NCBI GenBank assembly: GCA_002238425.1
Contig: MPMJ01000006.1
Location: 1-64,000, forward strand
Reading direction: 5' to 3'
From: SAR202 cluster bacterium bin16
Lineage (GTDB): Bacteria > Chloroflexota > Dehalococcoidia > Lucifugimonadales > Australimonadaceae
DNA: 64,000 nucleotides
A program made the position numbers and the translations under genes. This document shows positions 12,579 through 47,880 of this stretch, in pieces (within the stretch, counting starts at the first letter, position 1; the number at the start of each line of letters is the position of its first letter). The notes below the pieces were generated by a model that saw nothing but the letters and a program-made list of their open reading frames with translations, had not been told where the DNA came from and ran no database searches.

Positions 12579-14129
12579 TCACCACACGCCCAGATGCGGC
12601 GGGAGGGTGGCGGAGTCTGCGCTGCCGTCGTCTTCGTGTTCGCGTTCGCCGGGCTGCGAGGTTCCTGCCTCCTCAGGAACGACAGAGCCGCCGTCTTCGT
12701 CTTCGTCGCGGGAGTGCGGGGGCACGGGGACGCCGACCGGCGGACGCGGGTTGAGGAGGAACGGCTCGTAGCCGGTCCAGATCTGGAGCGAGGGCGGGGT
12801 CATGAACGCGAGGGCGAGGGCGTCGGCGCGGTCGGGCGAGGGGAGGTTCTTCTTGCGCAGTTCCCGCTTGCTCTCCATCAGCACCTGGCCAGAGCTGGAG
12901 ACGTCGTAGCGCAGGGAGAGGAGTTGCGCGGCGAGCTCCTCGTCGTCCGGCAGCGCGATGAGGCGGTCGTTGATGAGGCGGCGCAGCTCCCAGAAGATCT
13001 CGGAGCGCAGGTTTGCGAAACGCGTCGGGTGCATCGCCTTGCGCCCGAACTGCACGCCCCGGACGGGCGCTTTCAATTCGCGCAAGCGGTCGACGACGCC
13101 CGCTCCGAGGCCACCCTCGTCCACGAATATCGCCTCCGCGCCGAGTTCGCGCGCCATGAGCGCGGTCTCACCGGCGACCCGCATGGTGTCGATGAGTCCG
13201 AACGACTTCATCTCAACGACGCGCTGTCCGCGGCGCGCGCAGAGCACGGACTCGTTGTCGCCGAATCGGCCGACGTCGACGCCGATGTAGAGCGGCTCGC
13301 GGGCGTCGTCCTCCTCGGTGGGCGCGCCCTCGCCGCTGGGGGCGTCCTCCCGCATCGCGTCCTCGACGGCGGCGCGTCCGACGAGCGAGTCCTCCAGCGT
13401 GTCGGGGAACTGTGCGTAGACGGCCGCGATGAACTTGGGGTGGTCGGCGCCCCATTGCAGGGCCTTGTCGGCGATGTCCTCGGCGGTGATGAGGCCGGGC
13501 CGCGCGGGCTCCTCGCCGGTGAGGTTGGGGGTTTCGTAGGCGGAGATGCGCATGTGGTGGTACTGGTGACGCTTCGCGTGGTGGGACTCGTAGAACGTGC
13601 CGGACGTGGAGAAGGCGTTGCCCGCGAGAAGCGTCCTGGATGCGTTGAGACGGACCGCGGCGTCGAAGTGGGACTCCCGGACGGCGTGGGCCTCGTCGAC
13701 GATAAGGAGGAGCTCCGGCGAGTGGAAGCCGTGGATGTTGTCCGGGTTGTTCGTAGCGAAGCCGATGGCGAACCGGTCGGGCGAGATGAAGTACTTGCCT
13801 TTGGTGAGCTTGCCGCTGAGGGCGTCTCCTGCGGCGTCGCAGACGGCGGCGAGCTCCTGCCAGAGGATCTCGCGCACCTGCCGGTTGGTGGACGAGATGA
13901 CGACGACCTTCGCCTGTGCACGCGTCTCGACCCACCAGAGGATGAGGCGTGCCAGCGCCCAGCCCTTCCCGCAGCCGTTCGCGCCCACGACGGAGACGCG
14001 GCGCGAGCCCGCGACTGCCTCGAGCATCTCGCGCTGCTTCGAGTAGGGCTCCCCCGCCGCGCCGAGGACGTTCTCGACGAACCCGGCGGGGTCGTCCCGG
14101 TACTGTGGATAGCGGACCTCGTTGTTCAT
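12579..14129 (-). CDS. Phage terminase large subunit-like protein (orphan)
   Basis: Walker A-like VVGANGCGKG, Walker B LLLIVDEAHAV, RuvC-like nuclease residues (YIGVDVGRFGDNESVL, AIFVDEGGLGAGVVDRL, SPDRADALALAF). Confidence 0.85.
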   Translation of the reverse strand: MNNEVRYPQYRDDPAGFVENVLGAAGEPYSKQREMLEAVAGSRRVSVVGANGCGKGWALARLILWWVETRAQAKVVVISSTNRQVREILWQELAAVCDAAGDALSGKLTKGKYFISPDRFAIGFATNNPDNIHGFHSPELLLIVDEAHAVRESHFDAAVRLNASRTLLAGNAFSTSGTFYESHHAKRHQYHHMRISAYETPNLTGEEPARPGLITAEDIADKALQWGADHPKFIAAVYAQFPDTLEDSLVGRAAVEDAMREDAPSGEGAPTEEDDAREPLYIGVDVGRFGDNESVLCARRGQRVVEMKSFGLIDTMRVAGETALMARELGAEAIFVDEGGLGAGVVDRLRELKAPVRGVQFGRKAMHPTRFANLRSEIFWELRRLINDRLIALPDDEELAAQLLSLRYDVSSSGQVLMESKRELRKKNLPSPDRADALALAFMTPPSLQIWTGYEPFLLNPRPPVGVPVPPHSRDEDEDGGSVVPEEAGTSQPGEREHEDDGSADSATLPPHLGVW

Positions 14130-22481: not shown

Positions 22482-22577
22482 TGTCTCCTTTGGTCGTCGG
22501 CGTTTAGGTGGGAGGATGCGGGGATGACGGAAAAGGGATGCGAGGTTCCTGCCTTCGCAGGAACGACGGGAGGTGCG

Positions 22578-23753: not shown

Positions 23754-24180
23754 GCCTATCCTCGTTCAAGTTGTTCAGAGTAGCGTACCCGGCCCCACCA
23801 CCCCGGTCACCCCCATCCTATCCTTCCCCCATCAAGGGGGAAGGGATCAGGCGCCCCAATGCCCCACCCCCGGGTACCCTCACCCCAACCCTCTCCCCTT
23901 GTAGGGAGAGGGGGTCAGACACTGTCATTCCGAGCGTAGCCGAGGAATCTCTCGGGAACTGCATTGCGCATGCGAACGCTCCCCGAGAGGATGTTGCGCG
24001 CTAAAGCGCGGGCTTCGCTCAACATGACAATGCAAGGAGGCCTCGGCCTGAGTCAGCATAGGCGCCCCGCGCCGCTCCCCACCCCGTGTGCACTGCCCGT
24101 GCACTCTGGATTCCCGCTTTCGCGGGAATGACGGGGAATGGCGGGGAATGGCAGGAATGACGGACAACCATCCTTGCGCC

Positions 24181-26802
24181 CTACCCCAGCCCGATGCTCT
24201 CGTCGACGACTTCGAGGCGGGCCTTGACGGCGCTGAGGAAGGCGGCGGCCTCCGCGCCGTCGCCGACGCGGGGGGCGAAGGGGGGGCAGAGGGTCATCAT
24301 GGGGCGGACCGGGAAGGCGGCGGCCTCCGCGCCGTCGCAGACGCGGTGGTCGAAGGTGAGACAGAGGTTCATCATGGAGCGCACGGCGATGGCGTCGCCC
24401 TCGACGACGACGGGGCGCTTCACGATTGCTTCCGTCGTCATGATGGCGGCCTGCGGGTGGTTGATGATGGGCACGGAGACGACGGAGCCGAGCGCGCCGG
24501 TGTTGTTGAGCGTGAACGTCCCGCCCTGCACGTCCTCGATGGCGAGTGTCCCCGCGCGCGCGCCGTCGGACAGGCGGCGCAGCTCGGCGGCGATGCCTGC
24601 GATGCTGAGCGTGTCGGCGTCGCGCAGCACCGGGACCATGAGCCCGGCCTCGGTCGAGACGGCGACGGCGAGGTTGACGCGGTTGTTGAGGGTGATGTGG
24701 CCGTCGTCCCAGCGCGCGTTGAGGCGCGGGTGCTCGCGCAGGACAGCGGCCAACGCGCTCGCCGCGAACGGCAGGTAGGTGAGCGGCGTGCCGTGCCTCT
24801 CTTCGAATGCCGCCTTGAGCGCGTCCCGCGTTCGCACGAGGCGGGTGACGTCCACCTCAACCATCGACCACGCGGCGGGAATCTCGCGGGAGGAGCGGGC
24901 CATGTGCTCGGCTATGATGCGGCGGACGGGCGTCAGGGGCATCACGGAGGTGTCTTCGGCTGCTGCGGCCGGCTCTGCCGGGGCGGCCTCTTCTACTGCT
25001 TCCTCTTCCTCCACATCCTCGGGAGCTTCTTCCTCTACCTCATCGACTTCTTCTGTAGCCGGTTCCTCCTCTACTTCCTCTGGAGCAGCTTCATCCGCGA
25101 CCGGCTCTGCCTCCGTGGCTTGCGCTGGCTCCGCGGCTTCCTCGTGCGCTGCCCACGCACTCCCAACAAGCTGCGAGGTTCCTGCCTCCGCAGGAACGAC
25201 GGGGGGAGGAGCGGGAGTGACGGGGATGGGGGGCTCGTCCTCGGCAATGTCTTGCGCGGCCTGCTCCGCCTCTGCGGCTTCCGCCTCTTGCTCGACGACA
25301 TCTTGCGCGACTTGTACTGCCTCCGCGGCCTGCGCAGATTCCTCGGTTTCCTCGTGCGCTGCCCGCACACCCTGGATTCCCGCCTGTGCGGGAATGACGG
25401 GAATCGGGGGCTCGGCGTCGACTATCGCCAGCGCCGCGTCTTCCGCCTCTTGCTCGGCGAAATCTTCCGTGAGCGGCTCTGCCTCCGCGGCCTGCGCAGG
25501 TTCCTCGGTTTCCTCGTGCGCTGCCCACGCATCCCCAACAGGCTGCGAGGTTCCTGCCTCCGCAGGAACGACGGGGGGAGGTGCGGGAGTGACGGGACTC
25601 GGGAGCTCTTCTCCGATTTCAGTCGGCACCGCGTCTTCCGCCTCTTGCTCGGCGACATCTTCCGTGAGCGGCTCTGCCTCCGCGGCCTGCGCAGGCTCCT
25701 CAGTTTCCTCGTGCGCTGCCCGCGCACCCTGGATTCCCGCCTGTGCGGGAATGACGGGGCTTGGGGGCTCGGCGTCGGCTACAGGCTGTGCCGCGTCTTC
25801 TTCCGCGACCGGCTCTGCCTCCGCGGCCTGCGCAGGCTCCTCGGTTTCCTCGTGCGCTGCCCACGCACTCCCAACAGGCCGCGAGGTTCCTGCCTCCGCA
25901 GGAACGACAGGGGGAGGTGCGGGAATGACCGGGCTTGCCGCCTCAGCCTCATCTTCCGGAGCGGCCTCCTCTGCCGCCTCCTCCGGTGCAACCGCTTGCA
26001 CTTCTCCTGCAGCGGGTTCCTCTTCTGCGCTCGCTTCCTCCGTTTGGGAAGTCATACGGCTGACGGCTTCGAGCAGGTCCTTGCTCGTGATGCGGCCTCC
26101 GGTGCCGGTGCCCTCAATCGTCGAGAGGTCGATGCCATACTGCGCCGACAGCCTCGCGACGAGCGGCGAGATGACGTAACTGCGGTCCGGCTCCGCGACG
26201 CTCGGCGCTGCGGGCTCGTGCGCGCTTTCGATGTGCACGTGCGCGTCCTGCAGGGCGTCCGGGCGTCCCTCCCCGTGCTCCCCTGAGCCTGTCGGGCCGA
26301 CGCTGCGGACGCTGTCCATGAACTCAAAGGCGGGTTGCGCGGCTTCTTCGTCGCCCCCACCCCCAGGGAGAGGGGGTTCTTGTTCGCTGTTCGCGGCCGG
26401 CATCGCCCACGCGCCGCCAACACGTCCGGCGTCGCCGGTTGGTTCATCTTCGGCAGGTGCTTCTTCCTCGAAGGAGATGGGGTCAGCGGATGCGGCTGGG
26501 TCGGGCTGGTGAGGGCGCGCTGAAGCGCGTCCTGCCTCCGGAGGAACGACGGAGGGATCCTCCCCATCCACCTCCATCTCGCAGATGGGCTGGCCCATGG
26601 GGACGGTCTCGCCCTCTTCGGCGAGGGCACGGACGAACACGCCCGTGAACGGCGACGGGGCCTCCATGCTCACCTTGTCGGTGACGACTTCGACGAGGGG
26701 GTCGTATCGCTCGACGTGCTGGCCCGGCTCCACGAGCCACTTGCCGATGACACCCTCGGTCACCGATTCACCCACCTGCGGCAGTTCGATAATCTTGATC
26801 AT
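24181..26802 (-). CDS. 2-oxoacid dehydrogenase E2 (dihydrolipoyl acyltransferase) with repeat-expanded linker
   Basis: Lipoyl domain (VTDKVSMEAPSPFTG), PSBD (VISPLVARLSAQYGIDLSTIEGTGTGGRITSKDLLEAV), catalytic domain (LTFDHRVCDGAEAAAF). About 870 aa with a repetitive linker. Confidence 0.92.
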   Translation of the reverse strand: MIKIIELPQVGESVTEGVIGKWLVEPGQHVERYDPLVEVVTDKVSMEAPSPFTGVFVRALAEEGETVPMGQPICEMEVDGEDPSVVPPEAGRASARPHQPDPAASADPISFEEEAPAEDEPTGDAGRVGGAWAMPAANSEQEPPLPGGGGDEEAAQPAFEFMDSVRSVGPTGSGEHGEGRPDALQDAHVHIESAHEPAAPSVAEPDRSYVISPLVARLSAQYGIDLSTIEGTGTGGRITSKDLLEAVSRMTSQTEEASAEEEPAAGEVQAVAPEEAAEEAAPEDEAEAASPVIPAPPPVVPAEAGTSRPVGSAWAAHEETEEPAQAAEAEPVAEEDAAQPVADAEPPSPVIPAQAGIQGARAAHEETEEPAQAAEAEPLTEDVAEQEAEDAVPTEIGEELPSPVTPAPPPVVPAEAGTSQPVGDAWAAHEETEEPAQAAEAEPLTEDFAEQEAEDAALAIVDAEPPIPVIPAQAGIQGVRAAHEETEESAQAAEAVQVAQDVVEQEAEAAEAEQAAQDIAEDEPPIPVTPAPPPVVPAEAGTSQLVGSAWAAHEEAAEPAQATEAEPVADEAAPEEVEEEPATEEVDEVEEEAPEDVEEEEAVEEAAPAEPAAAAEDTSVMPLTPVRRIIAEHMARSSREIPAAWSMVEVDVTRLVRTRDALKAAFEERHGTPLTYLPFAASALAAVLREHPRLNARWDDGHITLNNRVNLAVAVSTEAGLMVPVLRDADTLSIAGIAAELRRLSDGARAGTLAIEDVQGGTFTLNNTGALGSVVSVPIINHPQAAIMTTEAIVKRPVVVEGDAIAVRSMMNLCLTFDHRVCDGAEAAAFPVRPMMTLCPPFAPRVGDGAEAAAFLSAVKARLEVVDESIGLG
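24238..24387 (-). repeat. 75-bp tandem duplication within the E2 3' end
   Basis: Copy starting at 24238 versus copy starting at 24313 (period 75 bp) encode ...PRVGDGAEAAAFL and ...DHRVCDGAEAAAFP. Differences are biased towards G in the first copy. Confidence 0.85.
25175..25911 (-). repeat. Five dispersed-type palindromic elements in the E2 linker
   Basis: GTTCCTGCCTCCGCAGGAAC at about 25175, 25546 and 25883 alternates with GGATTCCCGCCTGTGCGGGAATGACGG at about 25373 and 25729, encoding VVPAEAGTS and VIPAQAGIQ. Confidence 0.9.
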
Positions 26803-27047
26803 GTTCAGCATTCCCTCTGCGCTACCGGTTCAGCCTCACTGCGCAACTTGCCCCGACGGTTCACCCCCATCCCAGCCTTCCCCCATCGAGGGAGAAGGGA
26901 CAAACACCCTCGCTCCAAGACTGCGAGGTTGCGCGCTAAAGCGCGGGAACGACGGGGCCGTGCCCATGCTCCTCACCTCGCCGACTCACCCCTATCCTGA
27001 CCTTCCCCAACAAGGGGAAGGGACAAACACTCCCGCTCCTGGGATGC

Positions 27048-41533: not shown

Positions 41534-41995
41534 TCAGCTTCCTTCCTGTATGGAGATGGGCAGGGAGTGTACTACGGCGGGCGCTCCAGAGGAGGGATGC
41601 AGAGCGCCCACAAGAGGACGCCCCTACACCGGGCACCGCGCCACCTCCCCTCCCCCGTGCCCTCACCCGCCGCGCAAGCGCGTCGACCTCTCCCTGGGGG
41701 AGAGGTGAGGGGGATTCCCGCTTTCGCGGGAAGGACGGGTGGGATGCGGGAGGTTCCTGCCTTCGCAGGAACGACGGACGAGTACGGGACGCGGGGGCGG
41801 TTCGCGAACCGCCCCTACGCCAGGCGAGGTTCCTGCCTGCGCAGGAACGACGGACGCCTTCTCACAGGAACGACAGAAGAAAGGGGGCGCGGGGTTTGCT
41901 ATGCTACGCGCCGCCATACGCCACAAATGGCGGGAGAGAACACCTCCCAACAGAGAGCATGTAATCGCACACCACTACGGCAGGAGAGAGAGCAT

Positions 41996-47279: not shown

Positions 47280-47880
47280 GCGCGGGGGTTCCCTTGTAGG
47301 GCGAGAGGTTCCCCGAAAGGGCACCCACAAGGGATGCCCCTACACCAGGCCACCCGACAGGGGATTCGGCTTCGCTCAGCGTGGACAGGCGATGCCACGC
47401 ACCGCCTCGTGACCTAGCGGTCACCCTGGATTCCCGTTTTCACGGGAATGACGGGGGGAGGGGGTTCGCCGCCAGGAGAGGGGAACCCCGAAGGGCACCC
47501 ACAAGGGGTGCCCCTACATCGGGCCACCCGAGAGGGGATTCGGCTTCGCTCAGCGTGGACAGGCGATGCCACGCACCGCCTCGTGACCTGGCGGTCACCC
47601 TGGATTCCCGTTTTCACGGGAATGAACGGGGGGAGGGGGTTCGCCGCCAGGAGAGGGGAACCCCGAAGGGCACCCACAAGGGGTGCCCCTACAGCGGGCC
47701 AGCCGAGAGGGGATTCGGCTTCGCTCAGCGTGGACAGGCGATGCCACGCACCGCCTCGTGACCTGGCGGTCACCCTGGATTCCCGTTTTCACGGGAATGA
47801 CGGGGGGAGGGGTTCGCCGCCAGGAGAGGGAACCCCGAAGGGCACCCACAAGGGATGCCCCTACAGCGGGCCACCCAAGA
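47280..47880. repeat. Tandem repeat, about 3.4 copies of a 174-175 bp unit
   Basis: GGGATTCGGCTTCGCTCAGCGTGGACAGGCGATGCCACGCACCGCCTCGTGACC recurs at 47361, 47535 and 47710. Each unit carries the palindrome GGATTCCCGTTTTCACGGGAAT. Confidence 0.92.

Follow-up and report, generated by a model that had tools for sequence, protein, structure and literature searches.

The 64,000-nt window, the whole stretch of DNA that we analyzed, belongs to a genome of 3.22 Mb in 101 contigs that is 92.6% complete (G000), and its minus strand carries a gene for a pyruvate-dehydrogenase-type E2 acyltransferase with the E1 alpha and beta genes upstream. Two palindrome types, A and B, are found both inside the E2 gene and in intergenic DNA of the window. 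The features are:

24181..26811, minus strand: E2 acyltransferase gene, 876 aa, host of the palindromes; ORF uninterrupted; domains Biotin_lipoyl (aa 8-79), E3_binding (aa 214-247) and 2-oxoacid_dh (aa 620-833)
26173..26574, minus strand: linker 1 (aa 80-213), lipoyl to E3-binding domain, with a degenerate type A and a C-family palindrome
24955..26070, minus strand: linker 2 (aa 248-619), E3-binding to catalytic domain, with an array of five palindrome units
25178..25202, plus strand: type A, CGTC REP with GACGG tag; minus-strand reading VVPAEAGTSQ
25376..25400, plus strand: type B, putative CGTC-1 REP; minus-strand reading VIPAQAGIQG
25550..25574, plus strand: type A, CGTC REP; minus-strand reading VVPAEAGTSQ
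25733..25757, plus strand: type B, putative CGTC-1 REP; minus-strand reading VIPAQAGIQG, then the repeat tail GARAAHE
25886..25910, plus strand: type A, CGTC REP with tag GACAG; minus-strand reading VVPAEAGTSR
26515..26553, plus strand: GCGCGCTGAAGCGCG palindrome and degenerate type A REP; minus-strand reading VVPPEAGRASAR
24110..24134, plus strand: intergenic type B, putative CGTC-1 REP, directly past the E2 stop codon
41714..41853, plus strand: intergenic cluster, three copies (one type B, two type A)
12661..12685, plus strand: type A, CGTC REP close to the C-terminal end of a terminase-large-subunit-like gene (12579-14129, minus strand), with the same frame used (SVVPEEAGTSQP)
5600, 11817, 22545 (22545..22569, plus strand), 41753 and 41829: intergenic type A copies
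695, 24110, 28215 and 41714: intergenic type B copies, the last two with 1 mismatch each

Both intergenic families lie inside the E2 ORF, as an earlier note on this DNA had claimed. Linker 2 holds three type A copies alternating with two of type B, five units in total that read as PPVVPAEAGTS[QR] (three times) and PVIPAQAGIQG (twice), and the frame is kept throughout a single unbroken ORF (24181-26811, minus strand) and is shared with the degenerate type A of linker 1. The intergenic copies that the earlier note listed are real, with several coordinates corrected by a few bases (type A from 22548, 41745 and 41823 to 22545, 41753 and 41829; type B from 691, 28212 and 41713 to 695, 28215 and 41714), and the fragment it had seen near the lipoyl domain, PSVVPPEAGRASARP at 26515-26553, is a degenerate type A fused to the GCGCGCTnAAGCGCG family. 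The GPTGSG motif of linker 1 was rejected as a further palindrome, being conserved in other genera. Elsewhere in the window, a unit of ~175 nt occurs three times at 47430-47798 with a variant B-type palindrome (ATTCCCGTTTTCACGGGAAT) in each.

The spacers of the A and B units in linker 2 are homologous and therefore tandem duplication took part, in agreement with the proposal that local duplication followed entry. Slower evolution of the REP cores than of the spacers was dropped as a candidate; near-spacers are about equally similar and far spacers may be non-homologous. An AlphaFold model of E2 had a mean pLDDT of 41, even across the known domains, which is too low to be informative.

An artifact of assembly or sequencing is, in our view, a very improbable explanation of the array. 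The same gene does carry, in its catalytic domain, a 75-nt tandem duplicate (window 24228-24318) that is missing from all relatives, and this suggests a G-overcall artifact of sequencing or assembly since the substitutions between its copies are mostly towards G. The array itself is in frame with diverged spacers, and four other assemblies also have E2 linkers with REPs, in one case on a 396-kb contig. Insertions of 20-44 aa unique to G000, many of them Gly/Pro- or poly-G-rich (C39:12708-14141, C74:19908-21218, C62:68750-70186, C13:805-2271, C46:17418-18443), are possibly artifacts of the same kind as the 75-nt duplicate.

Judged by their sequence, both palindromes are CGTC-tagged REPs. Type A (GTTCCTGCCTCCGCAGGAACGACGG) is laid out as CGTC-GTTCCTGC-loop-GCAGGAAC-CTCG and type B (ATTCCCGCCTGTGCGGGAATGACGG) as CGTC-ATTCCCGC-loop-GCGGGAAT-CCAG. 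Type B would belong to CGTC-1 because its tag, stem, loop, and tail match the definition in PMC3733652, and type A is a deviating variant: the complementary A/T at the first two stem positions is present in type B (ATTCCCGC) while type A (GTTCCTGC) starts with G-C, and the unpaired tail, mostly CCA in CGTC-1, is CCAG in B and CTCG in A. CGTC precedes the stem in both types, in intergenic and E2 copies alike, other than in one E2 copy with TGTC, a variant allowed by PMC3733652. The 4-nt loops found were GGAG, GAAA, ACCG, GAAG, and ACAG, and 54 of the 73 intergenic G000 copies with an exact GACGG tag had a perfect 8-bp stem. Elements are ~30-50 nt in size, most of their six frames are usually open (no stop codon), and all six are used across host genes.

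A genome scan for copies, proposed in the earlier note, covered 1.07 Mb of G000 in which a home-made hexamer model called 962 genes (81% coding). At ≤2 mismatches, 101 CGTC REP copies were intergenic and 11 intragenic, so that ~90% lay outside genes. Repeat-derived DNA in genes was also measured without bias towards any motif, by mapping onto genes those 14-mers that five or more separate intergenic segments had in common. Qualifying 14-mers covered 6.0% of intergenic vs 0.13% of coding bases in the G000 sample, and the E2 gene held 242 of the 1092 covered coding bases (22%) among its 962 genes. The E2 of the congener G004 (1.52 Mb sampled) ranked first again with 222 of 1427. For intergenic-repeat DNA, E2 stood at 1/980 in G000 and 1/1354 in G004, and it kept these ranks with k-mers from the other genome alone (207 and 138 bases). 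In linker 2 the covered bases numbered 212, whereas 500 codon shuffles gave 0.4 on average and 29 at most. The repeat content of E2 is beyond chance, and the E2 linkers probably tolerate REP entry best. The PPLPGGGG stretch near 26365, also singled out in the earlier note, resembles the CCCTCTCCCT family (1-mismatch copy at 41686) and falls under the 14-mer threshold; its palindrome origin is plausible.

These figures bear on a different origin for the linker peptides, in which ordinary Pro/Ala tandem expansion within E2 produced them and their likeness to the intergenic palindromes arose by chance, or E2 seeded the intergenic copies. E2 linkers are Pro/Ala-rich, and those of the congener G001 did grow by unrelated tandem repeats. 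Against this, identity to the intergenic families spans whole elements, tag and tail included, codon shuffling yields close to zero covered bases, and unrelated proteins carry these palindromes too, in other frames and at positions left empty in close relatives. We regard this origin as the least probable of the alternatives considered.

Comparison of E2 orthologs covered six congeneric genomes (G000-G005), draft assemblies that are mostly MAGs, and other genera; the relatives matched by the G000 E2 that carry names are Chloroflexota/Dehalococcoidia MAGs. Versions free of CGTC REPs exist both outside and inside the genus. None of the E2s of other genera that we examined, mostly ~325-540 aa, contained a VPA-type motif. 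The E2s of G002-G005 measured 614-718 aa, and both of their linkers contained REPs at partly different positions, those of G002 being decayed. This distribution, with motif-free E2s in other genera and shifting positions among congeners, bears out the idea of the E2 linker as a permissive landing site. Within the genus, the 923-aa E2 of G001 had no CGTC REP despite ~650 copies genome-wide, which contradicts REP abundance as a predictor of E2 colonization; both of its linkers have grown by acidic tandem repeats unrelated to the palindromes. G001 is the most distant congener, and many of its CGTC REPs lie in head-to-tail clusters.

The E2s of five species together contained 17 CGTC REPs, 11 of them in four of the five congeners, all in the same orientation and phase and with four stem-loop subtypes. 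Other families were present as well: in the G003 and G004 E2s, CCCTCTCCC-type elements encoded LSLEGRGRAESAGEGEP, and the G002 and G005 E2s had stretches resembling the CCCTCTCCC family. Type A adjoins type B in linker 1 of G004, with related remnants in G005, G002, and G000, which suggests an old palindrome entry in that linker; the linker 2 copies look later. The single orientation of all 17 copies could go back to a small number of entries that were later copied inside E2, and the possibility of such multiplication in place makes the count of separate entries uncertain.

In-frame palindromes were wider than E2. Hosts included MutS, Lhr-type helicases, IleRS, the FtsY tail, an alpha/beta hydrolase, a squalene/phytoene-synthase-family gene, two terminase-large-subunit-like genes, and the linker of a two-domain CoA transferase. 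Several of these offered orthologous sites that were empty in some species and held different palindrome families in others. In the MutS connector domain, G000 and its sister G003 had a REP in a loop where the sequence was ordinary in G004, G005, G001, and in other genera. The hydrolase loop was empty in G004 (VPVTDDAAPLPVC) and contained a CCCTCTCCC-type element in three other species, on its own in G005 but accompanied by B in G000 and by A in G002. Near aa 1056 of IleRS, G000 had a CCCTCTCCC element where G004 had a CGTC REP beside a leftover tail of that element. A gene of G004 with two CoA-transferase III matches (C19:33894-36419; L190 13894-16419) had five palindrome-derived stretches of several families in its linker, making it a second E2-like sink. 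The earlier note had also proposed tabulating copies by frame; the single frame holds for E2, and outside E2 a firm frame preference was rejected, with 8 of 14 host genes using one of the two VPA-type frames (hand count).

Indels were compared across 541 ortholog pairs from G000 and G004. Of those ≥15 aa long, 11 of 28 were repeat-derived, vs 4 of 155 shorter indels. With E2 removed, the counts were 6 of 18 for the long in-frame indels vs 3 of 144 for the shorter ones (p ~6e-5), against a baseline of 0.4% repeat-derived among random coding segments.

We therefore consider it very probable that intergenic palindromes enter coding DNA and that the E2 linkers keep, duplicate, and diversify them as tolerated linker. 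CGTC REPs and other intergenic palindromic families would occasionally enter coding DNA, sometimes replacing a few codons, and the direction from intergenic to coding DNA is the one we infer. Insertions of 3n length could survive where a protein tolerates extra flexible residues, since most palindrome frames are usually open. In E2, Pro/Ala-rich REP peptides, like ordinary E2 linkers, would be kept in one orientation and frame, local duplication would then enlarge the array (five units in G000), and further entries or exchange between palindrome families would diversify it. The peptides probably serve mainly as tolerated linker, rather than supplying a new function.

A role at the level of DNA or RNA, in which mRNA hairpins would stabilize the transcript or make ribosomes pause at domain borders, the peptide being incidental, would also account for palindromes kept in E2. 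Intragenic stems are often perfect (8/10 in G000), and certain stem changes are matched by compensating ones on the opposite side, as in ATCCCCGC/GCGGGGAT of the G005 E2. Perfect stems make up only 3/10 of the G004 intragenic copies, though, the G002 copies are decayed, G001 has none and other genera lack the palindromes, and a symmetric hairpin would not need a single frame and orientation. We judge such a role improbable, though less so than the artifact or the tandem expansion. The different stem-loop subtypes, and the compensated changes in G005, may reflect later exchange or hairpin-templated correction.

The palindromes are probably mobile, because filled and unfilled orthologous sites exist. 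A transposase, or a replication or repair process acting on hairpins, may move them. All six congeneric genomes carry CGTC REPs, and the one Y1_Tnp/RAYT gene found belongs to G000, where a single CGTC REP lies shortly past its 3' end, G001-G005 having none; RAYT mobilization as a general explanation was rejected for the genus, five of six genomes being without RAYT. The RAYT-like gene of G000 (C67 ~69.6-70.3 kb; L043 17570-18300) itself contains an in-frame GTAG-type palindrome (GAGFKPAPTGAG).

A broader reading is that palindromic repeats are a leading source of long in-frame insertions in this genus, with the E2 linker as a recurrent sink that makes them permanent linker and with conversion or nested entry letting one family take over a protein site from another. 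We hold this tentatively and lean slightly against it as a whole. Whether mobile palindromes add usable protein sequence has been a question since the Rickettsia reports, and the filled, unfilled, and differently filled sites in core enzymes of congeners are natural controls for activity, linker reach, and mRNA effects. Repeat-derived peptides also call for caution when REP-rich genomes are annotated.

In-frame REPs are already known from Rickettsia and from the CGTC REP survey of Di Nocera, De Gregorio, and Rocco (2013, PMC3733652); what is new, relative to the main text of that survey, is a Chloroflexota genus with E2 as the main sink. We found no earlier report of in-frame palindromes in Chloroflexota in the open-access literature. 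That survey places Neisseria dRS3 and R. conorii RPE-6 in the CGTC-1 family, for which head-to-head dimers are frequent, classes two Rickettsia RPEs as CGTC REPs, and reports CGTC REPs inside genes, with flexible linkers or loops suggested as neutral sites; its main text reports no RAYT flanked by CGTC units and does not mention E2 or MutS. The elements described here share with CGTC-1 REPs the CGTC tag, the 8-bp stem, the 4-nt loop, the CCA tail (type B), and a mostly intergenic location with some intragenic copies. They differ in host, Chloroflexi not being listed in the main text, in the G-C first pair and CTCG tail of type A, and in having one protein as the main sink and filled and unfilled orthologous sites comparable within one genus. 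With GTAG REPs and their RAYTs (REPtrons) they share short palindromes with one tagged end, and G000 has one RAYT-like gene, whereas the five other congeners have no Y1_Tnp gene despite their CGTC REPs. The analogy with Rickettsia palindromic elements drawn in the earlier note is apt in that in-frame palindromes occur in unrelated conserved proteins (PMC10969869, PMC3733652), here E2, MutS, and the hydrolase, with repeat-free orthologs; the Rickettsia elements as first described are ~150 bp and supply one conserved peptide, whereas those of this genus are ~30-50 nt, use all six frames across host genes, and belong to several unrelated families.
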